In this document: in pieces, positions 13,726-59,580 of the stretch
Layout: each line of letters opens with the position of its first letter
Numbering within the stretch: position 1 is the stretch's first letter
NCBI GenBank assembly: GCA_001603075.1
Contig: LVBB01000058.1
Span: forward strand, 1 to 59,971
Direction of reading: 5' to 3'
From: Phycisphaerales bacterium Planc_01
GTDB taxonomy: Bacteria > Planctomycetota > Phycisphaerae > Sedimentisphaerales > Anaerobacaceae
DNA length: 59,971 bases
Translations under genes and position numbers: made by a program
The notes under the pieces: model-generated
Seen by the model: only the letters and a program-made list of their open reading frames with translations
Database searches by the model: none
Told to the model about the DNA's origin: nothing

Positions 13726-14271
13726 GTGATCGAATTGTGTGCGCCCCTGGCGGACCATGATGTTCGTCGGTTGAAAGCGGGTGATGAGGTGCTCCTTCGC
13801 GGCGTGGTGTATGCCGCCCGCGACATGGCCCACAAACGGCTCTGTGCTGCGCTCGACAGCGGCCGGGCACTCCCGATCGCGCTGGATGGGGCGGTCATCT
13901 ATTTCGTCGGTCCGACGCCGGCGCGGCCACCGGCAGTGATCGGTGCGGCCGGACCGACCACGTCGTCGCGGATGGACCCGTTCAGTCCGCAACTGATCGC
14001 GCATGGGCTGCGTGCGACGATGGGCAAGGGCTATCGCAGCGACGAGGTCCGCCGGGCGCTGCAGGAGTACGGAGCGGTGCATCTGGCGACGCTGGGGGGG
14101 GCCGGGGCACTGTTGAGCAAGCACATCGTCAGTGCTGAGGTCGTTGCGTACGAGGACCTGGGGACCGAGGCGATCCGCCGGCTGGAGGTGGTTGATTTTC
14201 CTGCGGTGGTGGCGTATGATGCCGCCGGGGGTAGTGTGTACGACATGATTCGTGACCGTTCCGGAGTATGA
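13726..14271 (+). CDS. Class I fumarase / L-tartrate dehydratase beta subunit (orphan)
   Basis: 181 residues. The frame is open from 13531, but GTG 13726 is chosen because GGGGAGG lies about 9 bases upstream and the product then starts like the family (VIELCAPLADHDVRRLKAGDEVLL). Further signs are GVVYAARDMAHKRL, IGAAGPTTSSRMDPF, GKGYRSDEVRRAL and GGAGALLSKHI. This domain forms half of class I fumarases or tartrate dehydratases and needs the Fe-S alpha subunit, which is not in this window. The TGA is one base away from the next ATG, so translation of the GTPase gene is probably coupled. It hydrates or dehydrates a C4 dicarboxylate if a partner exists elsewhere. Confidence 0.88.
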   Translation: MIELCAPLADHDVRRLKAGDEVLLRGVVYAARDMAHKRLCAALDSGRALPIALDGAVIYFVGPTPARPPAVIGAAGPTTSSRMDPFSPQLIAHGLRATMGKGYRSDEVRRALQEYGAVHLATLGGAGALLSKHIVSAEVVAYEDLGTEAIRRLEVVDFPAVVAYDAAGGSVYDMIRDRSGV

Positions 14272-55353: not shown

Positions 55354-55959
55354 CTATTCGAGCTCCTGCCGTCCGAGGATGGCGTCGGTGAGGATCTTGC
55401 CACTGGCGTATTCGATGGTCGATCCGGTGGGCAGTCCTCGGGCCAGCCGCGTGATTCGTATGCCGAGCGGGCGCAGCAGCGAGCTGATGTACAACGATGT
55501 GCCGTCGCCTTCCAGGTTGGGGTTCGTGGCCATGATGATCTCCCGCACCTGCCCGCCGCGAACCCGTTCAACGAGCTGCTTGATCGTCAGGTCGTCTGCT
55601 TCGACCCCGTCGAGTGGGGCGATATGGCCGCCCAATACGTGGTACAGCCATTTGCAGGTGCCGGTCTTCTCGAGGCTGATGACGTCCTTGGGCTGCTCGA
55701 CCACGCAGATCAGACTCTGGTCCCGCTGCGGGTCGGCGCAGATCTGGCAGATGTCTTCTTCGGAGAGGTTCCAGCAGACCCGGCAGCGTCTGATTCGGGT
55801 CTTGACGTCGCGGATGGCGTCGGCCAGCTTCATCGCTTCGGGCGGATCGGCCTTGAGAACGTAAAACGCCAGCCGTTCGGCGGTCTTGGGCCCGATGCCG
55901 GGAAGCCGCCCGAATTCTTCAATCAGCTTGTTCAGACTCTCGGTGTATGCACTGCTCAT
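55354..55959 (-). CDS. recR: Recombination protein RecR
   Basis: 201 residues, the normal length. It opens with the helix-hairpin-helix (LIEEFGRLPGIGPKTAERLAFYVL), then a four-Cys zinc finger (CRVCWNLSEEDICQIC), then a TOPRIM domain (ICVVEQPKDVISLEKTGT and MATNPNLEGDGTSLYI). It forms rings with RecO/RecF for loading RecA at gaps. It sits between two Gfo/Idh/MocA genes, which is an unexpected place; usually dnaX and recR are adjacent with ybaB. Here dnaX is 1.5 kb upstream on the same strand, with one oxidoreductase gene inserted between them and no ybaB, so an ancestral dnaX-recR pairing was probably interrupted. Confidence 0.96.
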   Translation of the reverse strand: MSSAYTESLNKLIEEFGRLPGIGPKTAERLAFYVLKADPPEAMKLADAIRDVKTRIRRCRVCWNLSEEDICQICADPQRDQSLICVVEQPKDVISLEKTGTCKWLYHVLGGHIAPLDGVEADDLTIKQLVERVRGGQVREIIMATNPNLEGDGTSLYISSLLRPLGIRITRLARGLPTGSTIEYASGKILTDAILGRQELE

Positions 55960-55992
55960 AGATGCTCACTACTATCCAATACTGGGTGATGG

Positions 55993-57342
55993 TTAAACGT
56001 CTTCCGGAACCACGAACGGACGGCGGTACTGCCGCGTCAGCATACTATTGGCCTCATCGTCGTTGACATATCTCTGTTGCTTCGGATCGAAGTCCAGCGA
56101 GCGGCCGAGTCGATACGAGGTGTTGGCCATGTGGATGAGCGAACAGCTATAGTGGCCATCCTCGACGGTGCCGGGCAGATTGGACGTGTCGTTGGCCCGT
56201 ACGGCGTCGATGAAGTGCTGGTAGTGGGCCCTGTCCGTGTTGCCCTTCTCGACCCCGGATGGGCCAGGCTCGCGCTTCTGGCCCAGGAAGGTCTGCCAGT
56301 GTCCGCCGTACATCGTCATATAGCCTTCGGAGCCATAGAAGATGTTGCCGATGTTGTTGTCCGGCGGCTTGCTGAAACCGCCCTCGTAGTTGGTGATCCA
56401 GTGGCGGACCTCGAACTGGAGGATCTTCTTCTTGTCGCTCCGGCCGCTCGGATTGTCGAATTCGTACGTGGCCATCAGCACGTTCGGCGTCTCCTGGTCG
56501 TCGTCGAACATCACGTGCGCGCCCGTCGCCATGACACGCATCGGCAGCGTGACGTCGAGCCCCCAACGGGCGATGTCCATTTCGTGCACGCCCTGATTGC
56601 CGATGTCTCCGTTGCCGTAGTCCCAGTGCCAGTGCCAGTTGTAGTGGAACCGGTTTCGGGTGAACGGCCGTTTCGGGGCCGGACCCAGCCAGAGATCGTA
56701 ATCGACGCCCGCGGGAACCGGCTCCACCGGCGTGCGCCCGATCGTGTCGCGCCATTTGTAGCAGGTGCCCTTGGCCAGGTACACCTCACCCAGGCCGCCG
56801 GAACGCAGGAACTCCATCGCTTCCTGATACGCCTTCGAGCTGCGGCTCTCCGTGCCATGATGCACCACGCGATTGTATTTCTTCGCCGCCTCGATCAGTT
56901 TCTGTCCCTCGAAGATGTTGTGCGTGAAGGGCTTTTCGATGTGGGCGTGCTTGCCCGCCTGACAGGCCCAGACGCCCGCCAACGCGTGCCAGTGATTGGG
57001 TGTGGCGACGCTGATCGCGTCGATGCTCTTGTCTTCGAGCAGCTTGCGGATATCGACGTAGATCTTGGGGATCGGCTTGTCGTTCTGTTCAAACCATTTG
57101 AGCCGCTCGGGAAAGAAGCTCTCGTCCACGTCGCAGATGGCGGCCACTTCGACGTTGGGCAGGAACGGGTAGTTCCGGATGTGGCTGCCGAATCCGTGCC
57201 CTCGAATCCCTACGACGGCGACTCGGACCCGGTCGTTGGCACCGGCCCACGACTGGGTCGTGCCCCACAGGCTTACGCCGGCTGCGGTTGCGAGCGACTG
57301 TCTGACAAACGTTCGGCGAGAGACCGCATGCGGTGTATCCAT
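55993..57342 (-). CDS. Tat-exported Gfo/Idh/MocA family oxidoreductase
   Basis: 449 residues from ATG 57342, after a strong AGGAAGGAG site. The Tat signal is SRRTFVRQSLATAAGVSL. VVGIRGHGFGSHI binds the cofactor, IEKPFTHNIFEGQKL is the EKP motif (His-Ile-Glu-Lys-Pro here), and DYDLWLGPAPKRPF with HYNWHWHWDYGNGDIGNQGVHEMDIARWG marks the long planctomycete subgroup. First gene of the operon; a promoter with extended -10 lies 80 bases upstream. It separates dnaX from recR. Confidence 0.9.
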   Translation of the reverse strand: MDTPHAVSRRTFVRQSLATAAGVSLWGTTQSWAGANDRVRVAVVGIRGHGFGSHIRNYPFLPNVEVAAICDVDESFFPERLKWFEQNDKPIPKIYVDIRKLLEDKSIDAISVATPNHWHALAGVWACQAGKHAHIEKPFTHNIFEGQKLIEAAKKYNRVVHHGTESRSSKAYQEAMEFLRSGGLGEVYLAKGTCYKWRDTIGRTPVEPVPAGVDYDLWLGPAPKRPFTRNRFHYNWHWHWDYGNGDIGNQGVHEMDIARWGLDVTLPMRVMATGAHVMFDDDQETPNVLMATYEFDNPSGRSDKKKILQFEVRHWITNYEGGFSKPPDNNIGNIFYGSEGYMTMYGGHWQTFLGQKREPGPSGVEKGNTDRAHYQHFIDAVRANDTSNLPGTVEDGHYSCSLIHMANTSYRLGRSLDFDPKQQRYVNDDEANSMLTRQYRRPFVVPEDV

Positions 57343-57421
57343 CGTATCTCCTTCCTGAATATGACTGCACGGCGTCATCGGATCTGCACGCCCGGTATCG
57401 GTCCGACATCGAGCCGACGAC

Positions 57422-57450
57422 AGCATAGCACGTCTGCGGGGAAAGTTCGA
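57422..57450 (-). promoter_or_regulatory. Extended -10 promoter for the MocA-recR-MocA-mttB-MocA operon
   Basis: Minus strand TGC before TATGCT (57422-57427), with a weak -35 TCGAAC (57445-57450) at 17 bases. The leader to ATG 57342 would be about 73 bases. Confidence 0.5.
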
Positions 57451-57496: not shown

Positions 57497-59143
57497 CTAT
57501 TCTTCTTCGATGCCCGTGACGGTGGCACCGAGTTCCACCAGCACGGTCTTGACGCCAGGGTCGCTGAGGATCTGCCGCTGCCGTTCCGCAAACGGTATGC
57601 GTTCGGCGCCCTCGGCGGTTTGGGGGGATTCGGCCACGGCGAACCTGAGGCGAATGGCTCGGCCGAGGCATTGGCTCAGGGCCTCGGCGATCTGGTCGCT
57701 TCGCCCGTTGCTCTCGCACATCTCTTTTTGCATCTTGGCGGTGGCGGCAAATTCGATCGTCAGTGTCTCGCCGACGAAGTCCTTAGGCGTCGAGCCGGCG
57801 AGCAGGCTGGTGGTAGCGGGACTGAGCCGCTTGGACAGCGCACCGAGGATTTCCGGCCACGACGCGGCCAGGTCCTCGGGCATCGGTTCGGCGTGGGAGA
57901 CGGGTACGACGCTCGCGCTGGGCTCGGCCGGTCCGGTCGGGATCGACAGGATCGCCGTGGCGGGTTTAGTCTCTACCGGGAGTTTTTTTTTGACCGGTGC
58001 GGCGGCGCTGCCCGACGAGCGGGCCAGCAGTTCGTCGACGTTGATGAAGTGCTCGCTCAACGCGAAGCGAAGCAGCGAGGCGTCGAGCAGGGCCCGGGGG
58101 GTATCGCTGTTCTTGACGGCCCAGCGAAGCTTTTCAAGTGCCGTGATGTTGTAGATCAGCGCCGCTGTGTCGAACTTCTTAGCCAGTTCGGCGGCCCGCT
58201 CCTTCTGGTCAGCCGTCAGAATCAGCAGATCGGTATCGACTCCGGCCGAGACGATCACCAGCAGATCGCGCATCTGCTCGGTCAGGGCATCGACGATCTG
58301 CGCCTCGCCCAGGCCCGTGTTGATCAGGTCTTCCGTGGCGGTCAGCGTGCCGGCCGCATCGGCGTCGCCGATCTTCTCGACGAGCGACTGGACCTTCTCG
58401 GCGTTGGGCCGGCCGAGGAAGTCCTCCAGCAGGTCCACCGAAAGGGGCTGGATCCCCGTGCTGATAAGCCGATCCAGCAGGCTCAGGCCGTCGCGCATCG
58501 ATCCGTTGGCCATCTTGGCCAGGGCCAGCACGAGATCGTCCTCGTACTTGATCTTCTCCTTCTTGAGGATGCTCTTGAGCTGCTCGGCGATCTGCTTCGG
58601 GTTGATATTGTGGAAATCGAACCGCTGGCACCGCGACTGGATCGTGGCGATCACCTTGTTGGGCTCGGTTGTGGCGAAGATGAATTTCACATGCTCCGGC
58701 GGCTCCTCCAGCGTCTTGAGCAGCGCGTTAAACGCCTGCGTCGTCAGCATGTGCACTTCGTCGATGATGTAGATCTTGTAGCGGGCCCGCGCAGGCCGAT
58801 AGATCGCGTTCTCACGCAGCTCGCGAATCTCATCGACGCGGTTGTTCGACGCGCCGTCGATCTCGATGACGTCGATGTCCTCGCCGGTGTTGATCGAGAC
58901 GCAACTGTCGCACTTGCAGCAGGGTCTCGTCGTCGGACCGTCAGACTTCAGGCAGTTCAGCGCCTTGGCCAAGATCCGGGCCATCGTGGTCTTGCCGACG
59001 CCCCGCGTGCCCGAGAACAAATACGCATGGGCGACGCGCCCCGTCTCGATCGCGTTCTTGAGCGTCTTGGAGATCGGGTCCTGCCCGACCACGTCGTCGA
59101 ACGTCTGCGACCGATACTTTCGTGCGAGAACGGTGTAAGCCAT
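57497..59143 (-). CDS. dnaX: DNA polymerase III gamma/tau subunit
   Basis: 548 residues (tau form). The AAA+ domain has Walker A GTRGVGKT (45-52), zinc Cys at 64, 75, 76, 78 and 81 region, the IIDEVHML box and the SRC sensor (SRCQRF). Domain III extends to about 365, followed by a Lys/Pro-rich linker and a C-terminal domain. The linker carries an A9 run (57983-57991, codons 385-387) at which a one-base slip in either direction meets a stop within six codons. This would make a gamma-like protein of about 390 residues lacking the C-terminal part. The start has no ribosome site; the four-helix-bundle gene and its inverted repeat lie directly upstream. Confidence 0.96.
   Translation of the reverse strand: MAYTVLARKYRSQTFDDVVGQDPISKTLKNAIETGRVAHAYLFSGTRGVGKTTMARILAKALNCLKSDGPTTRPCCKCDSCVSINTGEDIDVIEIDGASNNRVDEIRELRENAIYRPARARYKIYIIDEVHMLTTQAFNALLKTLEEPPEHVKFIFATTEPNKVIATIQSRCQRFDFHNINPKQIAEQLKSILKKEKIKYEDDLVLALAKMANGSMRDGLSLLDRLISTGIQPLSVDLLEDFLGRPNAEKVQSLVEKIGDADAAGTLTATEDLINTGLGEAQIVDALTEQMRDLLVIVSAGVDTDLLILTADQKERAAELAKKFDTAALIYNITALEKLRWAVKNSDTPRALLDASLLRFALSEHFINVDELLARSSGSAAAPVKKKLPVETKPATAILSIPTGPAEPSASVVPVSHAEPMPEDLAASWPEILGALSKRLSPATTSLLAGSTPKDFVGETLTIEFAATAKMQKEMCESNGRSDQIAEALSQCLGRAIRLRFAVAESPQTAEGAERIPFAERQRQILSDPGVKTVLVELGATVTGIEEE
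57983..57991 (-). promoter_or_regulatory. A9 slippage tract in dnaX (gamma/tau switch candidate)
   Basis: Minus strand GTC-AAA-AAA-AAA-CTC. One extra base (or -1 shift) reads ACT CCC GGT AGA GAC TAA; one missing base reads AAC TCC CGG TAG. The Thermus dnaX gene uses an A9 tract for the same purpose. Confidence 0.7.
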
Positions 59144-59164: not shown

Positions 59165-59179
59165 GATTATTGATGATTC
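59165..59179 (+). repeat. Left arm of 15-bp inverted repeat flanking the four-helix-bundle gene
   Basis: GATTATTGATGATTC; its exact reverse complement is at 59581-59595. The arm contains the stop codon and last codons of the four-helix-bundle gene. The similarity to the other arm extends imperfectly outward for about 15 further bases. Confidence 0.8.
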
Positions 59180-59562
59180 TCATCTGACAACCTGCGAGAC
59201 GGGAACTCGGCACTGCGGTTTCGAGCCGTCTTCCTGGCGGCAGCGAAGATGGCGGTCAACTCTTGTGCCTCACCCAGCAATCGGCCGACGGTAGACTCCG
59301 CCACCAGATCTTCCTCTACGGCGAACTCCATCCAAAAGGCCGACTCGTCGCCTTCTTCCAACACAATGCTGAGCTTCGAGACAAAGGCAGCCTTCGATTG
59401 CGACAGACACGTTGCTCGATAATTTGAGGCCACGGATGTCGAAGCCCGAATCAACTGGCCCCGGACATGGTTGCCCAGATACCCCTTCGGCAGAGCCAGA
59501 CTCAGCTTGACGCATCGGTGCGCAAAATCCTTCGTGCGCCGTTTCAAGTCTTCCGCATTCAT
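59167..59562 (-). CDS. Four-helix-bundle protein (23S rRNA IVS-encoded type)
   Basis: 131 residues. ATG 59562 has GGAGG 8 bases upstream; the GTG two codons earlier is too close to that site. The sequence is of the four-helix-bundle/IVS family (LPKGYLGNHVRGQLIRAST and SVASNYRATCLSQSKAAFVSKL), named for proteins encoded in intervening sequences of 23S rRNA but widespread as free-standing genes. Function is not established. The gene is bracketed by a 15-bp perfect inverted repeat, the left arm overlapping its last codons, so it may be carried as a small insertion unit. It lies immediately upstream of dnaX. Confidence 0.85.
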   Translation of the reverse strand: MNAEDLKRRTKDFAHRCVKLSLALPKGYLGNHVRGQLIRASTSVASNYRATCLSQSKAAFVSKLSIVLEEGDESAFWMEFAVEEDLVAESTVGRLLGEAQELTAIFAAARKTARNRSAEFPSRRLSDENHQ

Positions 59563-59580
59563 TCTCACACCCTCCGCCTC

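Follow-up and report, generated by a model that had tools for sequence, protein, structure and literature searches.

The window, i.e., the whole 59,971-nucleotide stretch analysed, carries dnaX, encoding DNA polymerase III gamma/tau, at 57497..59143 of the minus strand, with an ATG start and a TAG stop. The frame-0 product is tau, with 548 aa and a computed mass of 59.6 kDa. This product was found to contain all three bacterial clamp-loader parts, namely the AAA+ domain, the lid and domain III, via Pfam (DNA_pol3_delta2, DNAX_ATPase_lid and DNA_pol3_gamma3, with domain III at residues 240–367), via TIGR02397 (dnaX_nterm; 429 bits at a cut-off of 250) and via structure comparison, where the first part of the model matched E. 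coli gamma (1jr3_A) with a Z of 36.5 and an rmsd of 3.7 over 363 residues. The clamp-loader domains I–III correspond to residues 1–377 (58013..59143, minus strand). Downstream of dnaX lies recR, with a Gfo/Idh/MocA oxidoreductase gene intervening (window 55354–57426). A YbaB gene is often located between dnaX and recR; a profile search of the genome for YbaB (PF02575) at E 0.001 gave no match. The gene upstream of dnaX (window 59167–59568) matches the 23S rRNA-intervening-sequence protein family PF05635.

The AlphaFold model of DnaX, built from 40 relatives, had a mean pLDDT of 84.5. In this model, the final clamp-loader helix, belonging to domain III, spans residues 369–377, pLDDT is below 50 at residues 379–420, and a folded domain begins at residue 429. 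This tau-specific C-terminal domain, extending from residue 429 to the stop codon inclusive (57497..57859, minus strand), was also folded alone and compared by structure, revealing a KH-like fold. The best structure match was domain I of DnaA (4tps_B; Z 10.5, rmsd 2.0 over 77), followed by 2wp0_D (Z 9.6) and E. coli tau, whose C-terminal domain gave a Z of 8.1 (2aya; rmsd 7.4 over 82) and, in the polymerase complex (5fku_E), a Z of 7.9 with an rmsd of 2.6 over 75. A phmmer search of the domain against PDB sequences returned no useful match (best E 0.73). Because DnaA domain I and 2wp0_D outscore E. coli tau, the fold is common to several proteins, and a polymerase-binding role of the domain is what we infer from its likeness to tau.

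A tract of nine A residues (A9), proposed here to be an RNA-polymerase slippage site, occupies 57983..57991 of the minus strand, starting exactly at codon 385 and covering codons 385–387 (KKK), with AAA AAA AAA CTC being the codons at the tract. Its position is as given in the first-pass annotation, which had placed it at the boundary between domain III and the linker; in the AlphaFold model, the tract starts eight residues beyond the last domain-III helix, and the truncation point falls inside the low-confidence linker. Translation of variants with 7–12 A residues confirmed the claim that both alternative frames close within six codons, giving products of 389–392 residues. The TAG at 57973..57975 (minus strand) would end the products of transcripts with one A fewer (8 A's, 389 aa) or two more (11 A's, 390 aa), and the TAA at 57966..57968 (minus strand) those of transcripts with one A more (10 A's, 392 aa) or two fewer (7 A's, 391 aa). 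Full-length products of 548 aa and 549 aa are predicted for 9 and 12 A's, respectively. For the short form, masses of 42.9 and 43.2 kDa were computed from the sequence, conforming with the approximately 43 kDa expected beforehand. As modelled, the slipped product would be a clamp-loader subunit that lacks the tau-specific domain and, with it, a probable polymerase-binding function.

As had been noted, no other homopolymer in the window, whatever its base, is as long as the A9 tract, the runners-up being G8 at 14094, then G7 and T7. Two overlapping A8 matches were found in the window at a shuffle mean of 0.20, with two being reached in 4 of 100 shuffles. Genome-wide, A9 was matched eight times in 5.65 Mb (both strands), and from this count, the chance of an A9 in any 255-nt stretch of one strand is roughly 2 in 10,000. 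The seven other genomic A9 sites are crossed by 16 open frames of at least 80 codons, ten of which were scanned against Pfam; this revealed one sub-threshold VanZ match (L004), where the run touches the frame start only, before the first listed start codon. In the core of the window's dnaX, AAA accounts for 1 of 25 Lys codons. A chance homopolymer was rejected as unlikely on the shuffles, the number of genomic A9 sites, the rarity of AAA codons in the core and the conservation of the run in relatives.

Conservation of the A-run in relatives had been set beforehand as a test, and was analysed in a junction window defined as the 255 nt following the dnaX core. For the family set, 75 of 89 genomes had a dnaX match and 70 loci were read, with the partial matches G016, G027, G042, G070 and G086 being left out; A9 was present in 60 of these loci, A10 in eight, A7 in one (L043) and no run in one (L077). 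In the rest of the order, 30 of 33 genes had A9 or A10, and none was found in L126, L127 and L129. The absence of the run, named beforehand as the refuting outcome, was thus rare, and these five family and order members without A9 or longer (A9+) in the junction window indicate that the site can be lost. For the rest of the class, 54 loci were taken from 186 other genomes with a match and L180 was dropped due to its incomplete core; A9 or A10 was found in 38 of the remaining 53, A7–A8 in seven and no run in eight, in a set enriched for short frames, as part of its loci (including G163 and L316–L318) were picked with open-frame lengths in view. In 29 class loci chosen by family and blind to frame length, 21 had A9+, six had A7 in codon phase 2 and two had none. 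Taken together, 136 of 156 dnaX genes of family, order and class carry A9 or A10, and the cores of these 156 genes, amounting to about 169,000 nt, have no A9 at all, and 12 runs that reach at least A7. The run was retained at high GC, namely in 29/29 genes at a core GC of 0.60–0.65 and in 19/31 above 0.65.

Outside the class, the run was found infrequently. The set from other classes of the phylum comprised 60 loci, some of them picked for short frames; three were counted with the class and L262 and L270 were dropped, leaving 55, of which five had A9–A11 and 50 had no such run. In the named set, which partly overlaps with the unnamed loci (L181 and L123 share run and flanks), A9 or more was present in 17 of 80 loci, i.e., in 12 of 23 with a planctomycete title and in 5 of 57 others. 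One record titled Actinomycetota (L182, JAACET010000184.1) may carry a mislabelled title; it is 5333 nt long, like the record of L131 from the window's class.

The codon phase of the A9+ runs differed between the sets, with phases 0, 2 and 1 occurring in 42, 23 and 3 family genes, phases 2, 0 and 1 in 27, 2 and 1 order genes, and phases 1, 2 and 0 in 27, 6 and 5 class genes. The encoded peptides include KKK, EKKK, IKKN, LKKN and VKKN, among more. Since the run is found in all three phases, it is the DNA that is conserved and not the peptide. Two family members have a further A9 or A10 run towards the end of the gene, at codon 524 in L027 and at codon 513 in L045.

To obtain the expectation for stops, the codons downstream of the run were shuffled and closure within 10 codons was counted. 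Both non-tau frames were closed within 10 codons in 57/67 family genes (expected 9.3), 24/29 order genes (4.9) and 33/38 class genes (2.5), showing the near stops of the window's gene to be conserved as well. In the ten family exceptions, a non-tau frame was open for more than 10 codons, e.g., for 71 codons in L074. Considering the frames singly, the −1 frame was closed within 10 codons in 66/67 family genes, and the +1 frame in 58/67, at an expectation of 36%. The six A7 genes of the class had one of the non-tau frames closed within 7 codons and the third frame open for 12 to 136 codons.

The longest of the three frames was assumed to be that of tau, and this assignment was checked with a C-terminal HMM made from family and order, with a second pass adding class matches; the first-pass HMM gave out-of-frame matches up to E 3.2e-4, and the frames of L149, L164 and L188 are uncertain. 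By longest frame, tau was in frame 0 in all 67 family and all 29 order genes. For the 38 A9+ class genes, it was in frame 0 in 20, in −1 in 15 and in +1 in three (L142, L143 and L144). Of the 21 A9+ loci chosen blind to frame length, 19 had tau in frame 0, including the uncertain L164, and two in −1. The family-and-order HMM placed the tau domain out of frame in 19 class genes (16 in −1 and three in +1, with three of the 16 being at A7 sites). Class genes in which frame 0 encodes gamma only still keep the tract. Parsimony on a FastTree of 94 DnaX cores (91 forks, 26 of them drawn open) gave 10 tau-frame changes among A9+ rows and three changes between the A9+ and A7–A8 states, both counts being lower bounds that hold for this tree alone. 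Draft genomes with homopolymer errors could mimic a single frame change, and less easily the change common to L134–L136, L138, L139 and L147.

Based on these data, we consider it highly probable that the dnaX of this planctomycete contains a programmed site of transcriptional slippage like that of Thermus, as the first-pass annotation had proposed. RNA polymerase would realign on the A9 tract to give a mixed mRNA pool, in which transcripts with 9 or 12 A's would be translated to tau, comprising the clamp-loader domains, a flexible linker and the likely polymerase-binding domain, and transcripts with other A counts would reach the TAG or TAA within six codons and yield gamma, devoid of the last domain. 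The occurrence and extent of slippage, and the part played by gamma within the clamp-loader complex, are what we infer from the sequences compared here. Both tRNA-Lys species, UUU and CUU, were detected (ARAGORN on 30 of 45 tRNA loci), and the presence of two such species is perhaps relevant to polymerase slippage in Thermus (PMC5009743).

The main alternative is ribosomal −1 programmed frameshifting on A_AAA_AAA inside the tract, which would make gamma as in E. coli. An A9 contains this heptamer whatever its phase, and the nearly universal closure of the −1 frame in the family speaks for such a shift; yet the +1 frame, whose closure is unneeded for −1 shifting, is closed far above expectation as well, the class A7 genes have a single non-tau frame closed within 10 codons, and phase-2 runs stay 9–10 long though seven would suffice. 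Stimulators were assessed against shuffles that preserve base composition only; SD-like 4-mers upstream of the A9+ sites were not above chance (family 4 of 68 genes vs. 7.8 expected, order 5 vs. 5.8, class 7 vs. 9.9), and no excess of downstream folding was found at these sites (mean z 0.32, −0.58 and 0.09 for family, order and class, respectively). For the window's gene, the downstream fold has a raw energy of −17.7 kcal/mol in 60 nt. Some class relatives do resemble ribosomal sites, with the A7–A8 sites of the class being in phase 2 in 7/7 cases. In a comparison set of 12 A7–A8 genes (six class genes and six picked from 11 named phase-2 genes), SD-like motifs occurred in six vs. 2.3 expected (2/6 class, 4/6 picked) at a mean downstream fold z of −1.4; the four genes with z under −2 were all among the picked ones, and the six class genes had z values from 0.1 to −1.4. 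One of the picked genes, L189, has stops closing each of its non-tau frames. In phase and stops, A9+ and A7–A8 genes differ as expected for polymerase slippage vs. ribosomal −1 shifting, the stem-loop contrast being weak. Tau in the +1 frame of L142, L143 and L144 also disagrees with −1 shifting, and the occurrence of both shift directions is a mark of transcriptional slippage (PMC3711429). The free codon phase, the two closed frames, the missing stimulator excess and tau in both +1 and −1 frames of relatives favour RNA-polymerase slippage, leaving ribosomal frameshifting improbable as the source of gamma at the A9 tract.

Two further explanations dispense with a functional gamma, and to each we assign a very small probability. 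The tract might be a mere lysine-rich linker, kept as peptide or by descent, with gamma never being made. The linker alignment, in which K386 is invariant and K385 nearly so, is compatible with this, the 40 rows having all been chosen for A9+. Against it, the sparse use of AAA in the core of the window's gene stands out; by codon use, AAA three times would be expected in 4.58 of the 42 phase-0 family genes. Moreover, the DNA run persists through differences in phase and in encoded residues, and nearby stops close both frames far more often than codon shuffling predicts. Peptide conservation as the cause of the run was rejected on phase and codon use. Equally remote is a tract that slips with gamma as a by-product, where the near stops merely prevent long aberrant tails. 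Such damage control would account for the stops equally well, and the loss of the site in L077, L126, L127 and L129 also speaks for this view. As A9 is otherwise rare in the genome and replaceable by AAG codons, however, retention of the tract suggests a benefit, and class genes with a gamma-only frame 0 retain it, too.

The best-known precedent for the transcriptional slippage favoured here is dnaX of Thermus thermophilus (Larsen 2000, as cited in PMC5009743 and PMC1088944). By the account in these sources, the window's gene is like it in having A9 in the sense strand past the clamp-loader domains, tau in one ORF, near stops in both other frames and two tRNA-Lys species. The Thermus type is further marked by an mRNA pool of variable A number and by nearly equal amounts of gamma and tau. 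The window's gene differs in that its slippage is predicted from sequence, that of Thermus being proven by RNA and protein, and in that its run is just past domain III, at codon 385 of 548. Two-ORF dnaX genes with poly-A are already in print (Antonov 2013, PMC3711429). Class relatives, e.g., L130, L132–L136 and L138–L141, are like those described there, in that frame 0 stops at gamma and another frame encodes tau; unlike them, the window's gene has tau in frame 0, and the three class genes with tau in +1 differ as well. E. coli dnaX likewise makes gamma and tau from one gene, via a −1 programmed ribosomal frameshift at A_AAA_AAG with an SD-like sequence and a stem-loop as stimulators (PMC5009743). 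The window's dnaX contains only A_AAA_AAA and not this heptamer, and the A9+ genes as a set show neither stimulator above chance.

In the open-access literature, no published report of dnaX slippage or frameshifting was found for planctomycetes; the table of PMC3711429 names two planctomycete genomes, the A10 species of its supplement aside. What is new here is how widely the tract is conserved and that the tau frame has drifted, the kind of slippage site being already known from Thermus and the two-ORF dnaX genes. Whether slippage that yields a truncated product, such as that in Thermus dnaX, is functionally important was described as difficult to foresee from sequence comparisons (Baranov 2005, PMC1088944). 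The 156 genes, 136 of them with A9 or A10, supply such comparative support, with a tract that outlasts changes of phase and residues, two near stops and tau in other frames. This argues for selection for making both gamma and tau in these planctomycetes. In practice, frame-0 annotation would make some of these dnaX genes look truncated.

An A-run is absent from five class genes (L173, L178, L316, L317 and L318), in which frame 0 ends with GGA AAA GCC/GCA TGA soon past the core. By HMM, the tau domain is in the −1 frame in L178, the only one of the five so matched; the remaining four have a −1 frame of 69–78 open codons with a common HDHALVRRARELFAPEE-like end, and their +1 frame is also open, for 30–215 codons. 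These genes may have a ribosomal −1 site of the G_GGA_AAA type, a motif class that we take to be a ribosomal −1 frameshift site. For the class as a whole, we lean towards a scenario in which slippage made the DNA-encoded tau frame nearly neutral, so that it drifted between 0, −1 and +1 with tract and stops kept, and in which the slippage site was swapped with ribosomal-type A7–A8 sites and perhaps G_GGA_AAA. If true, transcriptional and translational recoding would have replaced one another in a natural succession within one essential gene. The relatives compared here provide naturally occurring pairs in which polymerase slippage and ribosomal frameshifting can be set side by side in one gene.

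Short frames were also observed in other classes of the phylum. In L266, L292, L309, L310 and L313, frame 0 ends at 376–397 aa with no run of A7 or more, and a tau-like C-terminal domain is present in another frame (weakly in L266, E 0.002). In L276 and L311, both from one other family, dnaX ends at 417 aa with no match to the tau C-terminal HMM, and these genes possibly encode a short DnaX only.
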